NCBI GenBank assembly: GCA_016872495.1
Contig: VGZT01000012.1
Span: forward strand, 1-52,509
Reading direction: 5' to 3'
Length of the DNA: 52,509 nucleotides
From: SAR202 cluster bacterium
GTDB lineage: Bacteria; Chloroflexota; Dehalococcoidia; Lucifugimonadales; Lucifugimonadaceae
Below are positions 11,356-18,420 of the stretch, piece by piece (positions within the stretch are counted from its first letter, which is position 1; each line of letters opens with the position of its first letter). The position numbers and the translations under genes are program-made. Under the pieces are notes generated by a model. That model searched no databases. It worked only from the letters and a program-made list of their open reading frames with translations, and was not told the origin of the DNA.

Positions 11356-12018
11356 CTAGCCGCGTGGGGCCACCCGCACCGCCCGGATGAAGGCGCGGAT
11401 CTTCTCCGGGTCCTTTTGCCCGTCGGTCTCGACTCCGCTGGATATGTCGACCCCCCAGGGGGAAAGGCGGCCCAGCGCCGCTCCTACGTTCGACGGGGTT
11501 AGTCCGCCTGCAAGCAGGACCTTCTCGAGGCTGGCGACGCCTTCAGCGGCTGACCAATCAAAGACTACGCCCCCGCCGCCCGGGACCCGCGGGTCATCCC
11601 GGTCGAGGAGCACAATCTCGCCCGCGTCGAGCGCGCGCAGGGCGCGCACGCGCACTGTCTCAGGGGTGTCGGAGGGCTTCACCCGGACCTGCCGCAGCAC
11701 CGGCACGCGCAACGATTTGCCGTAGTCCTGGGTCTCCTCGCCGTTCAGCTGAGCGATATCCAGGCAGCAGGCTTCGATGACCTCCGAGACCCATTCCAGG
11801 GGCTGATTGCGGAACAGTCCGACGAGGCGCGGCCCTGGCCCGGCGCCGGCGTGGGACCATTCGTGGCGAAACCGCTCGATGATCGCCCTGGCCTGCGGCA
11901 CGAGTAGCTGGCGCCGTACGCCCTCCACGAAAACGAACCCGAGGTAGTCGGCACCCGCGCGCGCCGCGACCATGGCGTTGTCGCAGTCGCGCATGCCACA
12001 GATCTTGACGCGCGTCAT
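11356..12018 (-). CDS. trpF: Phosphoribosylanthranilate isomerase
   Basis: About 220 residues, single TIM barrel. Carries out the Amadori rearrangement of phosphoribosyl-anthranilate, third step of tryptophan synthesis. TRVKICGMRD at the N-terminus holds the catalytic cysteine. LGFVFVEGVRRQL, VGLFRNQP, AQLNGEE, FDWSAAEG, LLAGGLTPSNV and VDISSGVE follow in family order. The ATG overlaps the trpC stop (ATGA). It is the last gene of the operon in the window; trpB and trpA do not follow, as glmS is met head-on 76 bases later, so those genes must be elsewhere. Confidence 0.95.
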   Translation of the reverse strand: MTRVKICGMRDCDNAMVAARAGADYLGFVFVEGVRRQLLVPQARAIIERFRHEWSHAGAGPGPRLVGLFRNQPLEWVSEVIEACCLDIAQLNGEETQDYGKSLRVPVLRQVRVKPSDTPETVRVRALRALDAGEIVLLDRDDPRVPGGGGVVFDWSAAEGVASLEKVLLAGGLTPSNVGAALGRLSPWGVDISSGVETDGQKDPEKIRAFIRAVRVAPRG

Positions 12019-12866
12019 CGACCGGTCCGCCCGGCGCGTCTGCCCGGGTTCACCGGGAGCGCGGAGAGTTGACGGGCCAGGTCGGCCACTCCGGCCCCGG
12101 CACGCATCAGGGACTCGCCAACCAGCACCGCCCGCGCGCCCGCGCGGGCCATTCGCTCGACGTCGGCGACGCCCTTCATCCCGCTCTCGGCGATGAGCAG
12201 GCGATCTGCCGGCACCCTGGGAGCAAGCCTCTCGAACACTTCTAAAGAGGTCACCAGCGTTCGCAGGTTCCGGTTGTTGATGCCGATCAGCGGGGCTCCG
12301 GCGCCAATTGCGACCTCAAGCTCCGCTTCGTCGAACGACTCCACGAGCACCCCCAGCCCGAGACCGGCCGCGAGGTCGTGCAGGGCCCTGACCCGGGCCG
12401 GCTCCAGAATCGTGACGATCAGCAGGATCGCGTCAGCCCCGGCGGCACGTGCTTCGTATACCTGGTAGTCATCGAAAACGAAGTCCTTCTGGAGCACCGG
12501 AACGCCGAAGTCCCGGGCGACGCGCTTGGCCGAAACCATGTCGGTCAGCGTTCCAAGGAAATGCTTCTCTTCGGTCAGCACCGAGAGCGCGGCCGCGCCC
12601 GCTCTGCAGTAGATCTCCGCCTGCCGGACCGGATCGAGGTCCAGCTGGAGCTCGCCGCCTGATGGTGAAGCCCGCTTCATTTCGGCGATCAGCGCGACCC
12701 CGCCACGCTGCAGACCGGACTTGAAGTCCGAGGGGGGTGGCATGTCGGCGATGCGGGCACGAAGCTCCTCGAGAGGCACGTCGACCTTCTGGCGGGCGAC
12801 GACGTACTCCTTGATCGCCATGATGCGGTCGAGCACGGTGCCGGTCTTCTGCGGCCGGGAGCTCAC
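12015..12866 (-). CDS. trpC: Indole-3-glycerol phosphate synthase
   Basis: About 283 residues, TIM barrel. Closes the indole ring from carboxyphenylamino-deoxyribulose phosphate. Key segments: VALIAEMKRASPSGG (catalytic Lys), SVLTEEKHFLGT, FGVPVLQKDFVFDDYQVYEA (general acid Lys), LIGINNRNLRT, LLIAESGM and VLVGESLMRAG. The GTG start overlaps the trpD stop (GTGA) and its own stop overlaps trpF, consistent with translational coupling. The protein is monofunctional, not fused to TrpF. Confidence 0.95.
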   Translation of the reverse strand: MSSRPQKTGTVLDRIMAIKEYVVARQKVDVPLEELRARIADMPPPSDFKSGLQRGGVALIAEMKRASPSGGELQLDLDPVRQAEIYCRAGAAALSVLTEEKHFLGTLTDMVSAKRVARDFGVPVLQKDFVFDDYQVYEARAAGADAILLIVTILEPARVRALHDLAAGLGLGVLVESFDEAELEVAIGAGAPLIGINNRNLRTLVTSLEVFERLAPRVPADRLLIAESGMKGVADVERMARAGARAVLVGESLMRAGAGVADLARQLSALPVNPGRRAGRTGR

Positions 12867-13915
12867 GAAAGTGCCTGGCTCAACGCGATCAGTGCGTCCA
12901 GCTTCGCCGCCGCGGCGCCGGAGTCTATCGAACGCATGGCAAGTTCGGCGCCCTCCTGGAAGCTGCCCGCGGCACCGCCGGCGACCAGCGCGGCAGCCGC
13001 GTTGATCACCACCGCGATCCGTTGCGAGCGCTCCTGTCCAGGTGGGTGGTTGTGTCCGCCGCCCTTGCCTGCCAGGACGGACCGAACGACCCGGACCGAC
13101 TCGTCGACGCTCTTGACCGTGAGGTGCTCGGGCGAGCCGTCAGGGAGCCCGAACGCGGCTGGATCGGCGCGGCGCCTCTTGATCTCCCCGCCCTTCACCT
13201 GCCAGACGGCCGACTGGCCGCTGACCGCGATCTCGTCGCCGCCGTCGGCGCCGTGCACGATGAAGGCATGCGAGGCGCCCAGCAGCGCGAGCGCCTTCGC
13301 CACGCGGTCGACGAGTGATTCGTCGGCGATGCCAATCAGCTGCGCGCTGGCGCCGGCCGGATTCGTCAGCGGTCCGAGCAGATTGAAGACGGTCCTGATG
13401 CCGATCTCGCGGCGCACCGGTCCGACGAATTTCATCGCCGGGTGAAAAGTCTGCGCAAACAGGAACCCGACACCTGTCTCGCGCATGCAACGTGCGACGC
13501 CTTCCGGACTGAGGGCGATCTTCACGCCAAGCTTCTCAAGCACATCGGCGCTCCCCGAGGAGCTCGACGCCGCCCGGTTGCCATGTTTGGCCACTGTGAG
13601 GCCAGCCCCGGCAACAACGAACGCCGCCGTCGTCGAGATGTTGAAGGTGTGGCGGCCGTCCCCGCCGGTCCCGCACGTGTCTACTACCGGCCCGTCGAAT
13701 GCCACGTGGAGCGACTTCTCGCGCATGACGCGCGCCATCCCGGCGATCTCTTCCGCGGTTTCACCCTTCATGCGCAGCGCCGTGAGGAAGGCCGCAACCT
13801 GCGCGGGCGTTGCCTCGCCCGTCATCAGTTGTCGCATCGCGTCGGCGGCTTCATCTGCGGTCAGGTTTCGACCGCCGACCACTGCCTGCAGCGCCTCTCT
13901 GATCGTAGTCGTCAT
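12863..13915 (-). CDS. trpD: Anthranilate phosphoribosyltransferase
   Basis: About 350 residues, homodimer of the nucleoside phosphorylase type II fold. Transfers the phosphoribosyl group of PRPP to anthranilate. The PRPP loop reads DTCGTGGDGRHTFNISTTAA; VAKHGNRAASSSSGSADVLE, TFHPAMKFVGPVRREIGIRT and FNLLGPLTNPAGA follow as expected. The C-terminal TVKSVDESVRVVRSVLAGKG contains a short His/Gly loop but otherwise looks normal. It starts nine bases after the trpG stop. Confidence 0.95.
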   Translation of the reverse strand: MTTTIREALQAVVGGRNLTADEAADAMRQLMTGEATPAQVAAFLTALRMKGETAEEIAGMARVMREKSLHVAFDGPVVDTCGTGGDGRHTFNISTTAAFVVAGAGLTVAKHGNRAASSSSGSADVLEKLGVKIALSPEGVARCMRETGVGFLFAQTFHPAMKFVGPVRREIGIRTVFNLLGPLTNPAGASAQLIGIADESLVDRVAKALALLGASHAFIVHGADGGDEIAVSGQSAVWQVKGGEIKRRRADPAAFGLPDGSPEHLTVKSVDESVRVVRSVLAGKGGGHNHPPGQERSQRIAVVINAAAALVAGGAAGSFQEGAELAMRSIDSGAAAAKLDALIALSQALS

Positions 13916-13924
13916 GGTCGTGCC

Positions 13925-14488
13925 CTACATCTTCAGAAAATTGGAGAGCAATGCCTTGCCCGGTTCGGTGAGGATCGACTCCGGGTGGAACTGGACCCCT
14001 TCGACCCTCAAGCTGCGGTGCCGCACGCCCATGATCACGCCGTTGTCGGTTCGGGCCGTTACTTCGAGGTCCGCGGGTACCGATTCGGGCGTGATCGCGA
14101 GCGAATGGTAGCGAACGGCATTGAACGGATTGGGCAGGCCCTGGAACACGCCCTTGCCGTCGTGCCTGATTTGCGAAGTCTTGCCGTGCCTTATCTCGCC
14201 CGCCCCTGCGACGACTCCGCCGTAGGCCACCCCGATGCACTGGTGGCCCAGGCACACGCCGAGGACCGGCACCGAGCCGCCGAAGTGGCGTATCGCGCCG
14301 ACCGACACGCCGGCATGCTCCGGCGACGACGGCCCGGGCGAGACGACCACCCGCTCCGGCTTCATCAGGGCAAGGTCCTCGACCGTCGCATGGTCGTTTC
14401 GGACCACCTCGACTTCGGCACCCAGTTCGCTCAGGTACTGATACAGGTTGTACGTAAAGCTGTCGTAGTTGTCGATAAGCAGCAACAT
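13925..14488 (-). CDS. trpG: Anthranilate synthase component II (glutamine amidotransferase)
   Basis: About 187 residues. Class I glutaminase that supplies ammonia to TrpE. MLLLIDNYDSFTYNLYQYL is the classic N-terminus. VVSPGPSSPEHAG gives the oxyanion loop and VLGVCLGHQCIGVAYGG the nucleophilic Cys. GVQFHPESILTEPG provides the catalytic His and Glu. It lies nine bases after trpE. As elsewhere it may also serve p-aminobenzoate synthase, but its place in the trp operon makes anthranilate synthesis the main role. Confidence 0.96.
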   Translation of the reverse strand: MLLLIDNYDSFTYNLYQYLSELGAEVEVVRNDHATVEDLALMKPERVVVSPGPSSPEHAGVSVGAIRHFGGSVPVLGVCLGHQCIGVAYGGVVAGAGEIRHGKTSQIRHDGKGVFQGLPNPFNAVRYHSLAITPESVPADLEVTARTDNGVIMGVRHRSLRVEGVQFHPESILTEPGKALLSNFLKM

Positions 14489-14497
14489 GACCGCCCC

Positions 14498-16018
14498 CTA
14501 TCGCCCTGCGGCCAGTTCGGCCTCTTCGATTGCTCGCAGAGGGGCACGCATCTTATGAAGGGACTCCTCGTATTCACCTTCCGGCGTGCTGTCGGCCACG
14601 ACCCCGCCGCCGGCCTGCAGGTGAGCGACGCCGTCCTTCATGACGATCGTGCGGATGGCGATTGCCGTCTCCATATTGCCGGTGTACGAGAAGAAGCCAA
14701 CGCCGCCCGCGTACGGCCCCCGGCGGTCGGGCTCCAGCTCGGCGATCAGCTCCATCGCCCGTACCTTGGGGGCACCTGAGACCGTCCCCGCAGGGAACCC
14801 GGCCCGGAGTGCATCGAAAGCGTCGAGTCCCGGGCGCAGCTTCCCGGTCACATGCGAGACCAGGTGCATCACGTGGGAGTACTTCTCCACGTCCATCTTC
14901 TGGACTACCTTGACCGAGCCGGGGAGGCTGACCCTCCCGATGTCGTTGCGGCCGAGGTCGAGCAGCATGACGTGCTCAGCCCGCTCCTTCTCGTCGTTGC
15001 GCAACTCGGTTTCCAGGCGCTGGTCTTCTTCCGGGGTGACCCCGCGCGGCCGCGTACCGGCGATGGGATGCACCGCAACCTCGCCGTCAACCGCCTTCAC
15101 GAGCAGTTCCGGCGATGCGCCGATGATCTGGAACCCGTCGAGCTCGAAGAAGAACATGTAAGGCGACGGGTTGACCGTCCTGAGCGAGCGGTAGATATCG
15201 AATGGACCGACAAAGGTCGGGCGCTCGAGCCGTTGCGAAAGCACCACCTGGATGACTTCGCCTTCGAAGATCGCTCGTTTGCCCGCGTCGATCATTGCCT
15301 GGTAGGCCTTCCGGGTCATGTTCGGCCTGGTCGACTCGAAACCCGACGCCACGGTGCGTGGGTAAGCTGTGTAGTCTGTCCCGCCCAGCGCCGATACCGC
15401 CTGGACGCGCCTCGGATCGGGACGCCTGCGAGCGTTATCGGGCAGCGGTCCATCCAGGCGCTCTATCAGGGCCTCGACCCGCCGGATCGCCCCGTCGTAC
15501 GCCTGGCGCGGGTTCCCATCGACGCTTGCATGGGCCACCACTGAGATGCTGTGTTTCACGTGGTCGAACACCAGCAAGCCGTCGGTCATCAGGAAGACGG
15601 CCTCGGGCACGCCCACGCCTTCCCCGCGCAGCTCTGGCACGCGTGTCTCGAAGTGTCGAACGGCGTCGTAGGAAAGGAACCCGACCGCGCCGCCGTGAAA
15701 CAGCGTCGGCAGTCCAGGCACGCGGCCGTACTTGAAGCGCCCCATCTTCTTCCGGAGCAGCTCGAGCGGATCGACCGCCCCGTCGGGCTCGCCGCGGCCG
15801 GTCCGAAGCACCTCGGCAGGTTCGGTCCCGATGAAGCTGAAGCGTGCGACCTGTTCGCCGCCCTCTACCGATTCGAGCAGGAAGGAGTACGGGCCGCGCG
15901 CCGTCTTCAGGTAGGCCGAGACCGGAGTCTCCAGGTCTGCCGAGATCGTGCGGTAGACCGGTATCAGGTTGAACTTCTTAGCTACCGCCTCGAAGGTCTT
16001 GAAATCTGGGGTGTACAT
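14498..16018 (-). CDS. trpE: Anthranilate synthase component I
   Basis: About 506 residues. Converts chorismate to anthranilate with ammonia from TrpG. The N-terminal domain keeps the tryptophan feedback motif LLES-x10-S (residues 47-61), so allosteric inhibition is likely. The C-terminal chorismate-binding domain shows IEGEVIQVVLSQRLER, PSPYMFFFELDGFQIIGASP, PIAGTRPRG, DLGRNDIGRVS and FPAGTVSGAPKVRAMELI. The ribosome site AGGA sits at 16023-16026 with a short spacer to ATG 16018, and ten bases separate the ATG from the stop of a Trp-rich short ORF. The Shine-Dalgarno region is perfectly complementary to a segment of that ORF (see the separate entry), suggesting controlled translation. Confidence 0.97.
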   Translation of the reverse strand: MYTPDFKTFEAVAKKFNLIPVYRTISADLETPVSAYLKTARGPYSFLLESVEGGEQVARFSFIGTEPAEVLRTGRGEPDGAVDPLELLRKKMGRFKYGRVPGLPTLFHGGAVGFLSYDAVRHFETRVPELRGEGVGVPEAVFLMTDGLLVFDHVKHSISVVAHASVDGNPRQAYDGAIRRVEALIERLDGPLPDNARRRPDPRRVQAVSALGGTDYTAYPRTVASGFESTRPNMTRKAYQAMIDAGKRAIFEGEVIQVVLSQRLERPTFVGPFDIYRSLRTVNPSPYMFFFELDGFQIIGASPELLVKAVDGEVAVHPIAGTRPRGVTPEEDQRLETELRNDEKERAEHVMLLDLGRNDIGRVSLPGSVKVVQKMDVEKYSHVMHLVSHVTGKLRPGLDAFDALRAGFPAGTVSGAPKVRAMELIAELEPDRRGPYAGGVGFFSYTGNMETAIAIRTIVMKDGVAHLQAGGGVVADSTPEGEYEESLHKMRAPLRAIEEAELAAGR

Positions 16019-16117
16019 CGAATCCTCGTTAGTCCTCGTCCAGGTGTCGCCAGCCGGGCCAGGCGCGGACGCGCGTAAGCCACGCGCGGCGCGCCCCGGG
16101 CCAGGACCAGGATTCGA
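16018..16117 (-). promoter_or_regulatory. Anti-Shine-Dalgarno pairing upstream of trpE (candidate translational attenuator)
   Basis: On the transcript, AGGATTCGA (16026 down to 16018) contains the trpE Shine-Dalgarno and the A of its ATG. TCGAATCCT (16117 down to 16109) in the upstream short ORF is its perfect 9-nt complement. The upstream arm overlaps codons 28-31 of that ORF, ending in its first Trp codon. A ribosome held at Trp codons 31 or 33 would cover this arm and free the trpE ribosome site. The complementarity and codon positions are seen directly; the regulation is inference. Confidence 0.5.
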
Positions 16118-16199
16118 ACGGGCTGATGCCTGCGCGGTCCGGCTGGCGCTCCAGCAGCGCTACCACCGCCGGTGTCGAAGTCAACCGCGTTAATTCCAT
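16029..16199 (-). CDS. Trp-rich 56-residue ORF between trpS and trpE (putative leader peptide)
   Basis: A short ORF fills the trpS-trpE gap. It opens with an ATG overlapping the trpS stop (ATGGAATTAA) and ends ten bases before the trpE ATG. Third codon positions are mostly G or C, like neighbouring genes. Five Trp residues fall at 31, 33, 40, 47 and 50 (segments ESWSWPG, RAWLTR, AWPGWRH); a 56-residue protein would normally have none or one. It has no recognisable domain, signal peptide or membrane helix, and no Shine-Dalgarno of its own, so reinitiation by ribosomes leaving trpS is likely. I infer a regulatory leader whose translation senses charged tRNA-Trp, but a small functional protein is possible. 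Confidence 0.6.
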   Translation of the reverse strand: MELTRLTSTPAVVALLERQPDRAGISPFESWSWPGARRAWLTRVRAWPGWRHLDED

Positions 16200-17215
16200 G
16201 TGCTTGTGTAGGTGTCGATTCGCATGGCAGCACGCGTCTCGCGCATCGTTTCCGCTGCCAGTAGCCGGGCGCGCCGCGTGCCTTCCATCAACGCTTCTTC
16301 GACCAGCTTCGGCCTGGCCTGGAATGCCGCACGACGTTCACGAATCGGGTCGAGGAACTGGTTCAAGGCCTCGACCAGCGCACGCTTGACCTCGACGTCG
16401 CCGACCGTGCCAGCCCGGTAGCGAGCCTTGAACTCGTCCACCTGCGCCTTGTTCGGGTTGAAGGCGTCGTGATAGTCGAATACTGGATTTCCTTCGACGT
16501 GCCCCGGGTCGGTTGGCTTGAGGCGCGTTGGATCCGTGTACATGGACATGACCTTCCGCTTCACGGTCGCGGCGTCGTCGCCCAGCTCGATCACGTTCCC
16601 CCTGCTCTTGCTCATCTTGGGCGCGCCGTCGGTCCCACGCAGCCTTGGTACACGCCCGATTAACGTCCCAGGGTCCGGGAAGACCTCGCGGAACATGCGG
16701 TTGAACTTGCGGGCAACCTCGCGGGTCATCTCGACGTGCGGGGCCTGGTCGTCGCCCACGGGCACAAGGTGCGCACGTGGCAAGAGAATGTCGGCGACCT
16801 GGCTCATCGGGTAGTTGAAGAATCCGACGCTGCGTCGTTCAACCGGCAACGAGTCGATCTCCGACTTCAATGTCGGGTTGCGCTCCAGCATTCCGAGGGG
16901 CGTGATGAAGCTCAGCAGCATCGTCAGCTCTGCGTGTTCCGGCACGTAGCTCTGGATGACGAACGAAGACCGCTGCGGATCCAGGCCCACCGCGAGCCAG
17001 TCGAGCGCCACGTCGGTCACCGACTTGCGAATCAGGTCAATGTCGTGGAAGTGATCGCCCAGTGCCTGGTAGTCGGCGATCAGGAAGTAGCACTCGTACT
17101 GGTCCTGCAGCCGGAGCCAGTTCTCGAGCGCTCCGACGTAGTGGCCGACGTGCAGTGCGCCGGTCGGACGGATGCCGGTCAGGATGCGCTTCTTCGTCTG
17201 CGCTGCTGCTGCCAA
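16190..17215 (-). CDS. trpS: Tryptophan--tRNA ligase
   Basis: About 341 residues, class Ic synthetase that charges tRNA-Trp. The HIGH-type motif is TGALHVGHYVGAL near the N-terminus and the KMSKS motif is GAPKMSKSRGNVIEL. The Trp-binding region MSQVADILLPRAHLVPVGDD lies between them. The start is a TTG at 17213-17215 with GGAGG seven bases before it. It is the first gene after a tRNA-Trp-sensing T-box and heads the trpE-G-D-C-F genes on the same strand, so charging and synthesis genes should rise together when Trp runs short. Confidence 0.95.
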   Translation of the reverse strand: MAAAAQTKKRILTGIRPTGALHVGHYVGALENWLRLQDQYECYFLIADYQALGDHFHDIDLIRKSVTDVALDWLAVGLDPQRSSFVIQSYVPEHAELTMLLSFITPLGMLERNPTLKSEIDSLPVERRSVGFFNYPMSQVADILLPRAHLVPVGDDQAPHVEMTREVARKFNRMFREVFPDPGTLIGRVPRLRGTDGAPKMSKSRGNVIELGDDAATVKRKVMSMYTDPTRLKPTDPGHVEGNPVFDYHDAFNPNKAQVDEFKARYRAGTVGDVEVKRALVEALNQFLDPIRERRAAFQARPKLVEEALMEGTRRARLLAAETMRETRAAMRIDTYTSTWN

Positions 17216-17238
17216 GGGACGCCTCCACGAAAAACGAG

Positions 17239-17521
17239 CAAAAAAAAGCCTCGCCCATCAGGGGCGAGGTTCTCGCGGTGCCACCCTTGTTATCCCTCGA
17301 CGCATCGGGGGACATCTCTTGACGGACGCTCCAGAAACCTGGAAGGCCCTGGGCTCTGATAACGGTGCCCAATCCGGCGCTGACTACTCGGGACTACCTT
17401 TTGCCAGGCGGCTCCCGGGACCATTCGGCAAGATCCGTAGGTGCCGGGATTTCACCACCCCCGGCTCTCTAACCCTCGTGATCTGGCTTACTTTTCCCGT
17501 TCATAGCCTTCAGCTATCAAC
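17239..17521 (-). ncRNA. T-box riboswitch, tRNA-Trp specific
   Basis: Leader of the trpS-trp operon. In transcript order: an AGTA element (AAAAGTAAGCC), the AGAGAG box at about 17477-17482 followed by the GGTGGTGAAATCC apical region, and a specifier loop GAATGGTCC in which UGG (17421-17423) is the Trp codon read by the tRNA-Trp anticodon. Then come the T-box consensus AACAAGGGTGGCACCGCG (about 17274-17291), which binds the free tRNA CCA end, and an intrinsic terminator. Uncharged tRNA-Trp should stabilise the antiterminator and allow trpS expression. All elements are directly visible; Trp specificity agrees with the downstream genes. Confidence 0.95.
17240..17269 (-). terminator. T-box intrinsic terminator
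   Basis: The transcript folds CCTCGCCC (17269-17262 on the minus strand) with GGGCGAGG (17256-17249) around a 5-base loop, followed by C and eight U residues (17247-17240). It is the terminator arm alternative to the T-box antiterminator. Confidence 0.92.
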
Positions 17522-17527
17522 CTGACC

Positions 17528-17533
17528 AGTATA
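17528..17533 (-). promoter_or_regulatory. -10 box of the trpS-trp operon
   Basis: TATACT on the minus strand, placing the transcript start near 17521, just before the T-box leader. The -35 region seventeen bases upstream (CAGGTT) is a poor match, so confidence rests on position relative to the leader. Confidence 0.5.
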
Positions 17534-17637
17534 TCAGGGGGGATGGAACAAACCTGCGCTGGCCCACGTCAATAGTTCGTAACAGCCATCCAGCGCGCGG
17601 GCAGATGATGCCTTCGGCAAGAAGAGTGAGGACTGAA

Positions 17638-18420
17638 ATGGGCACCACAGGGATGCGCCTGCTTGCGGCGAGCGCCGCCACGATCACGCTGCTTGCGCTC
17701 GCATGCGCGCGAGGTACAAACGCCAACCTGACGCCGGCGCCGACCGCCGTCGCCACCCCAATGGCAGCTGCAGTGAAGCGCGTCACCGCGCCGATCGACG
17801 GCATCACGATCGACAGGACCGGGACCGCGCCGCTCACCTACGCGGCGCGCGTGAAGTCGGGGCTGCCCAACGGCTGCATCAGTTTCGGCGATTACAGGGT
17901 CGATCGTTCCGGAGATCGAATTGAGATCACGGTCATGAACCTTGCGCCCGCCGATCCCGACGTGATGTGCACGATGATCTACGGGATCGTCAGGAAAGAC
18001 ATCCCGCTGCCGGGTGAGTTTGTCGAGGGGACCCATTACACGGTCGCCGTGAACGACAAGGCGGTCAGGTTGGTTGGCGGCCAGAAAGGCACCGCCGTGG
18101 GCGACTACCGCTTCGTGCCGGCGCCTATCGAGGGTGTGGATGTTCAGATCCTGGAGTCGTTCCCAGTGCAGTACCGAGTCGCGGTGACCTCCGGGTTGCC
18201 GGACTCATGCCACGAGTTCGATTCCTGGCAGGTCCACCGGGACGGGAACACGGTGAGGATCGACCTCCGAAACCGGGTACCGTCGGCGCCGATGGCGTGC
18301 GCGCAGGTTTACCGTACCGAACTCCACTCGATCGCGATCGGTAATGGAAACGACTACCAGAAGGGGGCTTCGGTCACGGTCCAGGTGAACGACCGTTCGG
18401 CGACTTTCGTTGCGCAGTAG
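17638..18420 (+). CDS. Putative lipoprotein with two tandem homologous domains
   Basis: About 260 residues. The N-terminus is a lipoprotein signal (hydrophobic stretch ending LLALAC, Cys23), then a Thr/Pro/Ala-rich linker. Two copies of an approximately 95-residue unit follow. Each starts PI[DE]G, contains SGLP..C (Cys80, Cys191), a second cysteine about 30 residues later (Cys111, Cys221) and ends with a [AV]..VND.[AS]..[LF]V strand, implying one disulfide per unit and a beta-rich fold outside the membrane. ATG 17638 is chosen for the upstream GAGGA. I do not recognise the family or function. It is divergent from the T-box operon and precedes pheS. Confidence 0.8.
   Translation: MGTTGMRLLAASAATITLLALACARGTNANLTPAPTAVATPMAAAVKRVTAPIDGITIDRTGTAPLTYAARVKSGLPNGCISFGDYRVDRSGDRIEITVMNLAPADPDVMCTMIYGIVRKDIPLPGEFVEGTHYTVAVNDKAVRLVGGQKGTAVGDYRFVPAPIEGVDVQILESFPVQYRVAVTSGLPDSCHEFDSWQVHRDGNTVRIDLRNRVPSAPMACAQVYRTELHSIAIGNGNDYQKGASVTVQVNDRSATFVAQ

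Follow-up and report, generated by a model that had tools for sequence, protein, structure and literature searches.

Does a single tRNA sensor set the expression of both the tryptophanyl-tRNA synthetase and the tryptophan biosynthesis genes in this SAR202 cluster bacterium, or is trpE subject to a second one? The window, i.e., the whole 52,509-nt contig stretch VGZT01000012.1 (GCA_016872495.1), carries on its minus strand a trpS-trp operon, and the initial annotation had proposed that the synthetase and the biosynthesis genes could both be under the control of one tRNA sensor. The first half of that proposal, a Trp T-box in front of the operon, held. The single-sensor half is probably incomplete, because a second element, a Trp-codon leader, is conserved in the family, and trpE is therefore very likely subject to an additional gate not shared by trpS. 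We consider it probable that two sensors act in series on this operon, the T-box on transcription and then the Trp-codon leader, which would gate the translation of trpE.

The T-box and the operon behind it

The T-box leader, from stem I to the antiterminator, occupies positions 17257..17513 of the minus strand, where a search with the covariance model RF00230 (Rfam, cmscan), the check suggested in the initial annotation, scored 102 bits (E 1.9e-21), above the gathering score of 93 for this model. The landmarks that had been read by eye are all present on the same strand: AGTA (17489-17492), AGAGAG (17465-17470), the specifier triplet UGG for Trp after GAA (17421..17423, from the sequence and the cmscan alignment), the T-box sequence AGGGUGGCACC (from 17287) and an intrinsic terminator found by a terminator scan (17240..17269), with an eight-pair stem (17269-17249) and T8. 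To these can be added the T-box bulge UGGC (17280..17283), complementary to the GCCA of tRNA-Trp. The terminator stem reuses the 3' arm of the antiterminator, i.e., the two are competing structures, and its fold is no better than that of shuffled sequences (z -0.92). The tRNA-Trp of the genome (anticodon CCA, discriminator G, encoded CCA, end CGCTCCT-G-CCA) fits both the specifier and the bulge; it was the single tRNA-Trp seen in the 28 loci scanned around tRNA matches, out of 39 matches. Judged by these sequence features (score above gathering, cognate specifier, NCCA-complementary bulge and competing terminator), the element is a standard member of the RF00230 family, for which tRNA-dependent readthrough is predicted. 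A non-Trp specifier or an independent promoter before trpE would have spoken against the initial reading; the triplet is UGG, and when 15900-17750 was scanned with simple consensus patterns there was no promoter-like site (0.4 expected), and the T-box terminator was the single terminator-like site.

Behind the T-box follow trpS (16190..17215; TIGR00233, 277 bits vs. a cut-off of 177), trpE (anthranilate synthase component I, 14498..16018; TIGR00564, 537 bits vs. a cut-off of 518), trpG (13925..14488; TIGR00566), trpD (12863..13915; TIGR01245) and trpC (12015..12866; NF001377), the last three also above cut-off, and trpF (11356..12018; NF002298, 162 bits, below the cut-off of 215). The trpF reading frame was matched by 13 NCBIfam families, 11 of them trpF models and two trpF-containing fusions. 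All six genes lie on the minus strand, and after trpE they are separated by 9-nt gaps or overlap by 4 nt, so the order trpS-(leader ORF)-trpE-G-D-C-F and its tight spacing, as first annotated, agree with the family names and coordinates, with trpF below cut-off. The trpB gene of this genome is on a different contig. Adjoining the T-box there is a divergent ORF of 271 aa (17605-18420, plus strand) that had no NCBIfam match at E 0.001 and shows partial, often repeated similarity to sequences near trpS in several relatives.

We compared this locus with others of the same family, sampled as 76 genomes including that of the window. A trpS match was found in 69, from which 61 loci (the window and 60 further regions) were picked for side-by-side trpS and trpE matches; of the eight not included, some are truncated at contig ends and the others were left unselected. 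The genome of the window itself has five T-box matches, three of them over the cut-off, and the four other than the Trp T-box (L001, L003, L004 and L005) precede ORFs that, judging from their translations by eye, presumably resemble ilvB, ileS, valS and a citramalate/isopropylmalate synthase. T-boxes at trpE and at a trpB-like gene of two Dehalococcoides strains were listed in a 2008 survey, as far as the part of it used here goes (PMC2494555), and 59 of 60 relatives have a T-box match (E <= 0.1; over the cut-off in 53), so that a Trp T-box before a trpS-trp operon is ordinary.

The 61 loci fall into two classes by the length of the gap between trpS and trpE. The long-gap class (80-313 nt) comprises 46 loci from eight genera, and the T-box core AGGGTGGCACCGCG precedes trpS in 43 of them, the other three holding just 0-49 nt of upstream sequence. 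The short-gap class (-8 to 33 nt) comprises 15 loci from four small-genome genera, none with the core before trpS. Downstream of the core, 36 of the 43 family T-boxes have a run of at least five T, and the specifier pattern was GAATGG in 31 and GAATTGG in six; in the remaining six, four from genus g11 and two cut by contig ends, no pattern was found. The specifier loop of genus g10 (L068, L070-L074) reads GAAUUGG, with one extra U, in all six readable T-boxes, and this is also the genus lacking a Trp-Arg leader. In genus g3 (L107-L110) trpS is of a distant type, 37-39% identical, within a retained order T-box-trpS-leader-trpE, as if the synthetase gene had been replaced in place. Of 60 regions upstream of trpE from outside the family, 24 have trpS as the immediately preceding gene, and in 16 of the 60 the T-box core lies 62-105 nt before trpE without trpS (e.g., L209, L212, L216, L222, L223 and L225).

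A Trp-codon leader between trpS and trpE

In the window, the stretch between trpS and trpE holds an ORF of 56 codons, five of them Trp (16029..16199, minus strand; translation MELTRLTSTPAVVALLERQPDRAGISPFESWSWPGARRAWLTRVRAWPGWRHLDED). It shares 10 nt with the end of trpS, has no obvious Shine-Dalgarno (SD) sequence at its start, and stops 10 nt upstream of trpE. The first two Trp codons form TGG TCC TGG (16101..16109) and the others are at 16080-16082, 16059-16061 and 16050-16052. Around 16095-16100 the window reads TGG CCC GGG GCG CGC where its congener L066 has TGG CCC TGG GCG CGC TGA; the third Trp codon and the stop of L066 have been lost, and this is why the ORF of the window extends to 10 nt before trpE. 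A protein search for the peptide in 60 relatives gave no convincing relative (best non-self E 0.0048); given how short and divergent the leaders are, we compared the trpS-trpE gaps instead. Scanning 15950-16300 against Rfam below threshold gave just one chance-like microRNA match.

An ORF with Trp codons was present in 36 of 39 gaps from seven genera, window included; the three without it (L089, L093 and L094) are all from g12. Leaders of the congeners of the window end in IHWYWPWAR and SEWSWRWAR, those of g9 in RWVWRS and variants, those of g11 in RLWRRHWRS and others, and those of g3 in RWRSLD and variants, while in g12 they have 15-23 residues, mostly with WRS, and a single Trp codon each. 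Trp-Arg-Ser occurs in 27 of the 36 (manual count). Where an Arg codon follows the leader TGG, it is CGA in 25 loci, CGG in five, and CGT and CGC in one each. Two leaders (L079 and L083) have their stop codon within trpE, and the start codon is GTG or TTG in three. The WRS and WAR endings may resemble those of the trp leader peptides of E. coli and Sinorhizobium.

A T-box alone is the usual arrangement, and the T-box could be the sole regulator here too, with the ORF as a by-product of the spacing between trpS and trpE. The four small-genome genera, with no room for a leader in their gaps, would agree with this, and so would g10, the eighth genus, where a Trp-codon ORF was found in one of seven gaps and Trp-Arg in none, and where the T-box is retained. 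Trp-Arg leaders are missing from three of 18 gaps in g12 and all seven in g10, and among these 10 the T-box core precedes trpS in all nine with upstream sequence. However, such ORFs are much rarer in shuffled gaps. A strictly defined leader (ATG start, TGG at -110 to -45 from trpE, stop before trpE) is found in 31 of the 39 gaps, whereas 500 dinucleotide shuffles gave 2.4 on average and at most eight. A strict ORF with an Arg codon directly after the TGG is found in 28, vs. 0.3 on average and at most three in the shuffles. The regions upstream of 30 family trpB genes (of 70 matches; several starts were guessed) also argue against a mere by-product, having neither the T-box core nor a Trp-Arg ORF, with an ATG ORF containing a Trp codon in four. 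In nine trpS-trpE gaps of 50-350 nt from outside the family there was no Trp-Arg ORF, and one ATG ORF with TGG. Among the loci examined, the leader is specific to the trpS-trpE gap of this family. We therefore regard the T-box as sole regulator as unlikely.

The conserved stretch UGGCGAAG holds the most conserved columns of A1, as might be expected if it were a structured RNA or a protein-binding element rather than part of a peptide. The reading frame and the position of the stop codon favour the peptide: read upstream from the TGG, its frame reaches an ATG uninterrupted in 33 of 36 loci vs. four and six for the other two frames, and a stop follows within nine codons in 30 of 36 vs. seven and six, a comparison that is partly circular, both the loci and the Trp codon having been selected for the ORF. 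Moreover, g1 and g2 retain Trp codons while the RNA surrounding them is different. An RNA or protein-binding element in place of a peptide appears very unlikely to us.

A short conserved ORF with codons for the amino acid of the pathway, placed before the regulated gene, is what characterizes a leader-peptide attenuator, and the ORF described here fits this description. The gap might be a classical transcription attenuator with leader peptide, terminator and antiterminator, possibly Rho-dependent. Hairpins do follow soon after the Trp codons in several relatives (GGCGCGC/GCGCGCC in L066 and L067, CGAAGC/GCTTCG in g9), but no T-run follows them in the gap sequences inspected, and the simple consensus scan of the window revealed no intrinsic terminator after the leader, the only terminator-like site in 15900-17750 belonging to the T-box. 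Transcription attenuation in the gap is accordingly rather improbable. The second element resembles a leader-peptide attenuator that lacks a terminator, and most likely it acts on the translation of trpE.

Predicted pairing with the trpE Shine-Dalgarno region

Translational control would require that the trpE start be masked, and folding of the window predicts a candidate helix. The SD region of trpE, ACGAGGAUUCG (16019..16029, minus strand), is predicted in the minimum free energy (MFE) fold to pair with the arm CGAAUCCU (16109..16116), the exact 8-bp complement of 16019-16026, forming the helix CGAAUCCU/AGGAUUCG. A duplex test of the arm region against the SD region gave p = 0.007, and in the MFE fold the helix extends across the first two Trp codons (z -2.84; two of 200 shuffles were as good). 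The pairing probability of the SD with the ribosome footprint on the Trp codons was 0.43 vs. 0.07 in shuffles (p 0.07). Folding gives moderate support for the SD helix in the window.

In genus g12, RNAalifold gave, unprompted, a helix between the Trp codon and the SD, and no other, from 15 sequences. The Trp codon and the bases preceding it would pair with the trpE SD as UUCCUGG/CCAGGAA, or as UUUCUGG/CCAGAAA in L092 and L101. With the inner hairpin, this helix had a covariation score of 0.149 vs. 0.102, not reached by any of 500 shuffles, with all slid versions lower, although related sequences can beat shuffles even without structure. Weaker measures were less distinctive: of 500 shuffles, 65 reached the number of pairs changed on both sides and 35 the number of further pair types. 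In g3 the predicted helix is CCUCGACU/AGUCGAGG or CCUCAAC/GUUGAGG, from four sequences only, and its covariation rests on one pair (95 of 500 shuffles were as good). In g11, three loci have a candidate helix CCUCUUGA/UCAAGAGG or a modified form of it. In g9 no helix pairs changed on both sides, and the support from folding for this genus is weak.

Averaged across 36 loci, the probability that the SD pairs with the region covered by a ribosome on the Trp codons was 0.45 vs. 0.12 in shuffled sequences (single-base shuffles, 60 per locus; the Wilcoxon value of 1.8e-5 is indicative only, the loci being related). It exceeded 0.5 in 18 of the 36, i.e., nine of 15 in g12, four of five in g11, two of four in g3, one of three in g1, the single locus of g2, one of seven in g9 and not in the single locus of g7. 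The plain duplex test reached p <= 0.05 in 12 of 39 gaps and in none of the seven in g10; Fisher's p for this test assumes independence of related sequences and carries no weight here. In a model of the stalled ribosome, opening of the SD amounted to 1 kcal/mol or more in 17 of the 36 loci, and in eight the SD became harder to open; this model compares the best Trp codon with a sliding median and is biased toward the leader reading, so that its p of 2.6e-5 carries no weight. In the window the SD hardly opens (2.6 to 2.5 kcal/mol), as would be expected if the T-box were the only regulator; the predicted helix, with its covariation, the RNAalifold result and the footprint pairing, points the other way.

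Two proposed sensors in series and their known counterparts

The reading that we prefer, with the T-box and the leader acting one after the other, would work as follows. The UGG specifier and UGGC bulge of the T-box would read uncharged tRNA-Trp and let the polymerase pass the terminator before trpS, a switch expected from the T-box family for motifs and a tRNA match that are observed here. The Trp-codon ORF, itself observed and conserved, would be translated after trpS, starting at or near its stop codon. The RNA around its Trp codons, predicted to pair with the trpE SD in most leader-bearing genera, would form this helix in the cell. When charged tRNA-Trp is scarce, a ribosome waiting on the Trp codons would keep the arm open and trpE would be translated; when Trp is plentiful, the ribosome would depart and the SD would be masked again. 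In the window, the leader stop lies so close to trpE that a ribosome terminating there could cover the SD as well; the same proximity would permit re-initiation at trpE, which is the opposite effect.

The T-box would sense uncharged vs. charged tRNA and the leader the speed at which Trp codons are decoded; reading different quantities, the two could make trpS answer to a mild and trpE to a stronger Trp shortage. For this family of Chloroflexota (Dehalococcoidia, in part labelled SAR202 cluster), we lean toward two independent Trp sensors on one trpS-trp mRNA, with different set points, a stalled ribosome that unmasks the trpE start, and a helix shifted or re-invented in each genus. If so, synthetase and pathway would have different thresholds. 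T-boxes, which respond to uncharged tRNA, and leader peptides, which respond to ribosome speed, tend to be seen as two different answers to the same need. An operon that uses them in series, the second among the genes themselves, raises directly the question of what is gained by sensing tryptophan two times. A further gain is a small ORF that is conserved in a lineage known without cultures.

A literature search, mostly of non-subscription literature, found, among the papers listed, no report of a trpS-trpE operon with T-box and leader peptide, and to that extent the leader between trpS and trpE is unreported. A second analogue is given by the cysteine-codon leaders before mycobacterial cys operons (PMC1262725), also reportedly described by Canestrari in 2020, a work cited in PMC9094748. 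These likewise have a run of codons for the amino acid of the pathway and no obvious terminator, but concern cysteine in Actinobacteria, and a T-box goes unmentioned in the part of the source used here (PMC1262725). According to the same part, the classical trp attenuators of Corynebacterium and Streptomyces also place a short UGG-containing leader ahead of trp genes, but with poly-U terminators, of which none was found in the trpS-trpE gap of the window (PMC1262725). The Dehalococcoides T-boxes share with the window a Trp T-box at a trp biosynthesis gene within the Dehalococcoidia; the window differs, on what the consulted part of that survey gives, in having trpS as first gene and then a second, Trp-codon leader (PMC2494555).

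The closest published arrangement among those found is rtpA (anti-TRAP) of B. subtilis, as described in the portion of the source used (PMC2311275). There, too, transcription is set by a Trp T-box, and translation is modulated by RtpLP, a leader with three Trp codons immediately ahead of the gene, complete translation of the leader preventing that of rtpA (PMC2311275). The B. subtilis pair controls a regulator and not trpE, whereas the leader described here sits inside the operon, behind trpS, and is predicted, in the window and in the family, to be accompanied by a helix that would mask the SD of trpE (PMC2311275 for the B. subtilis system).
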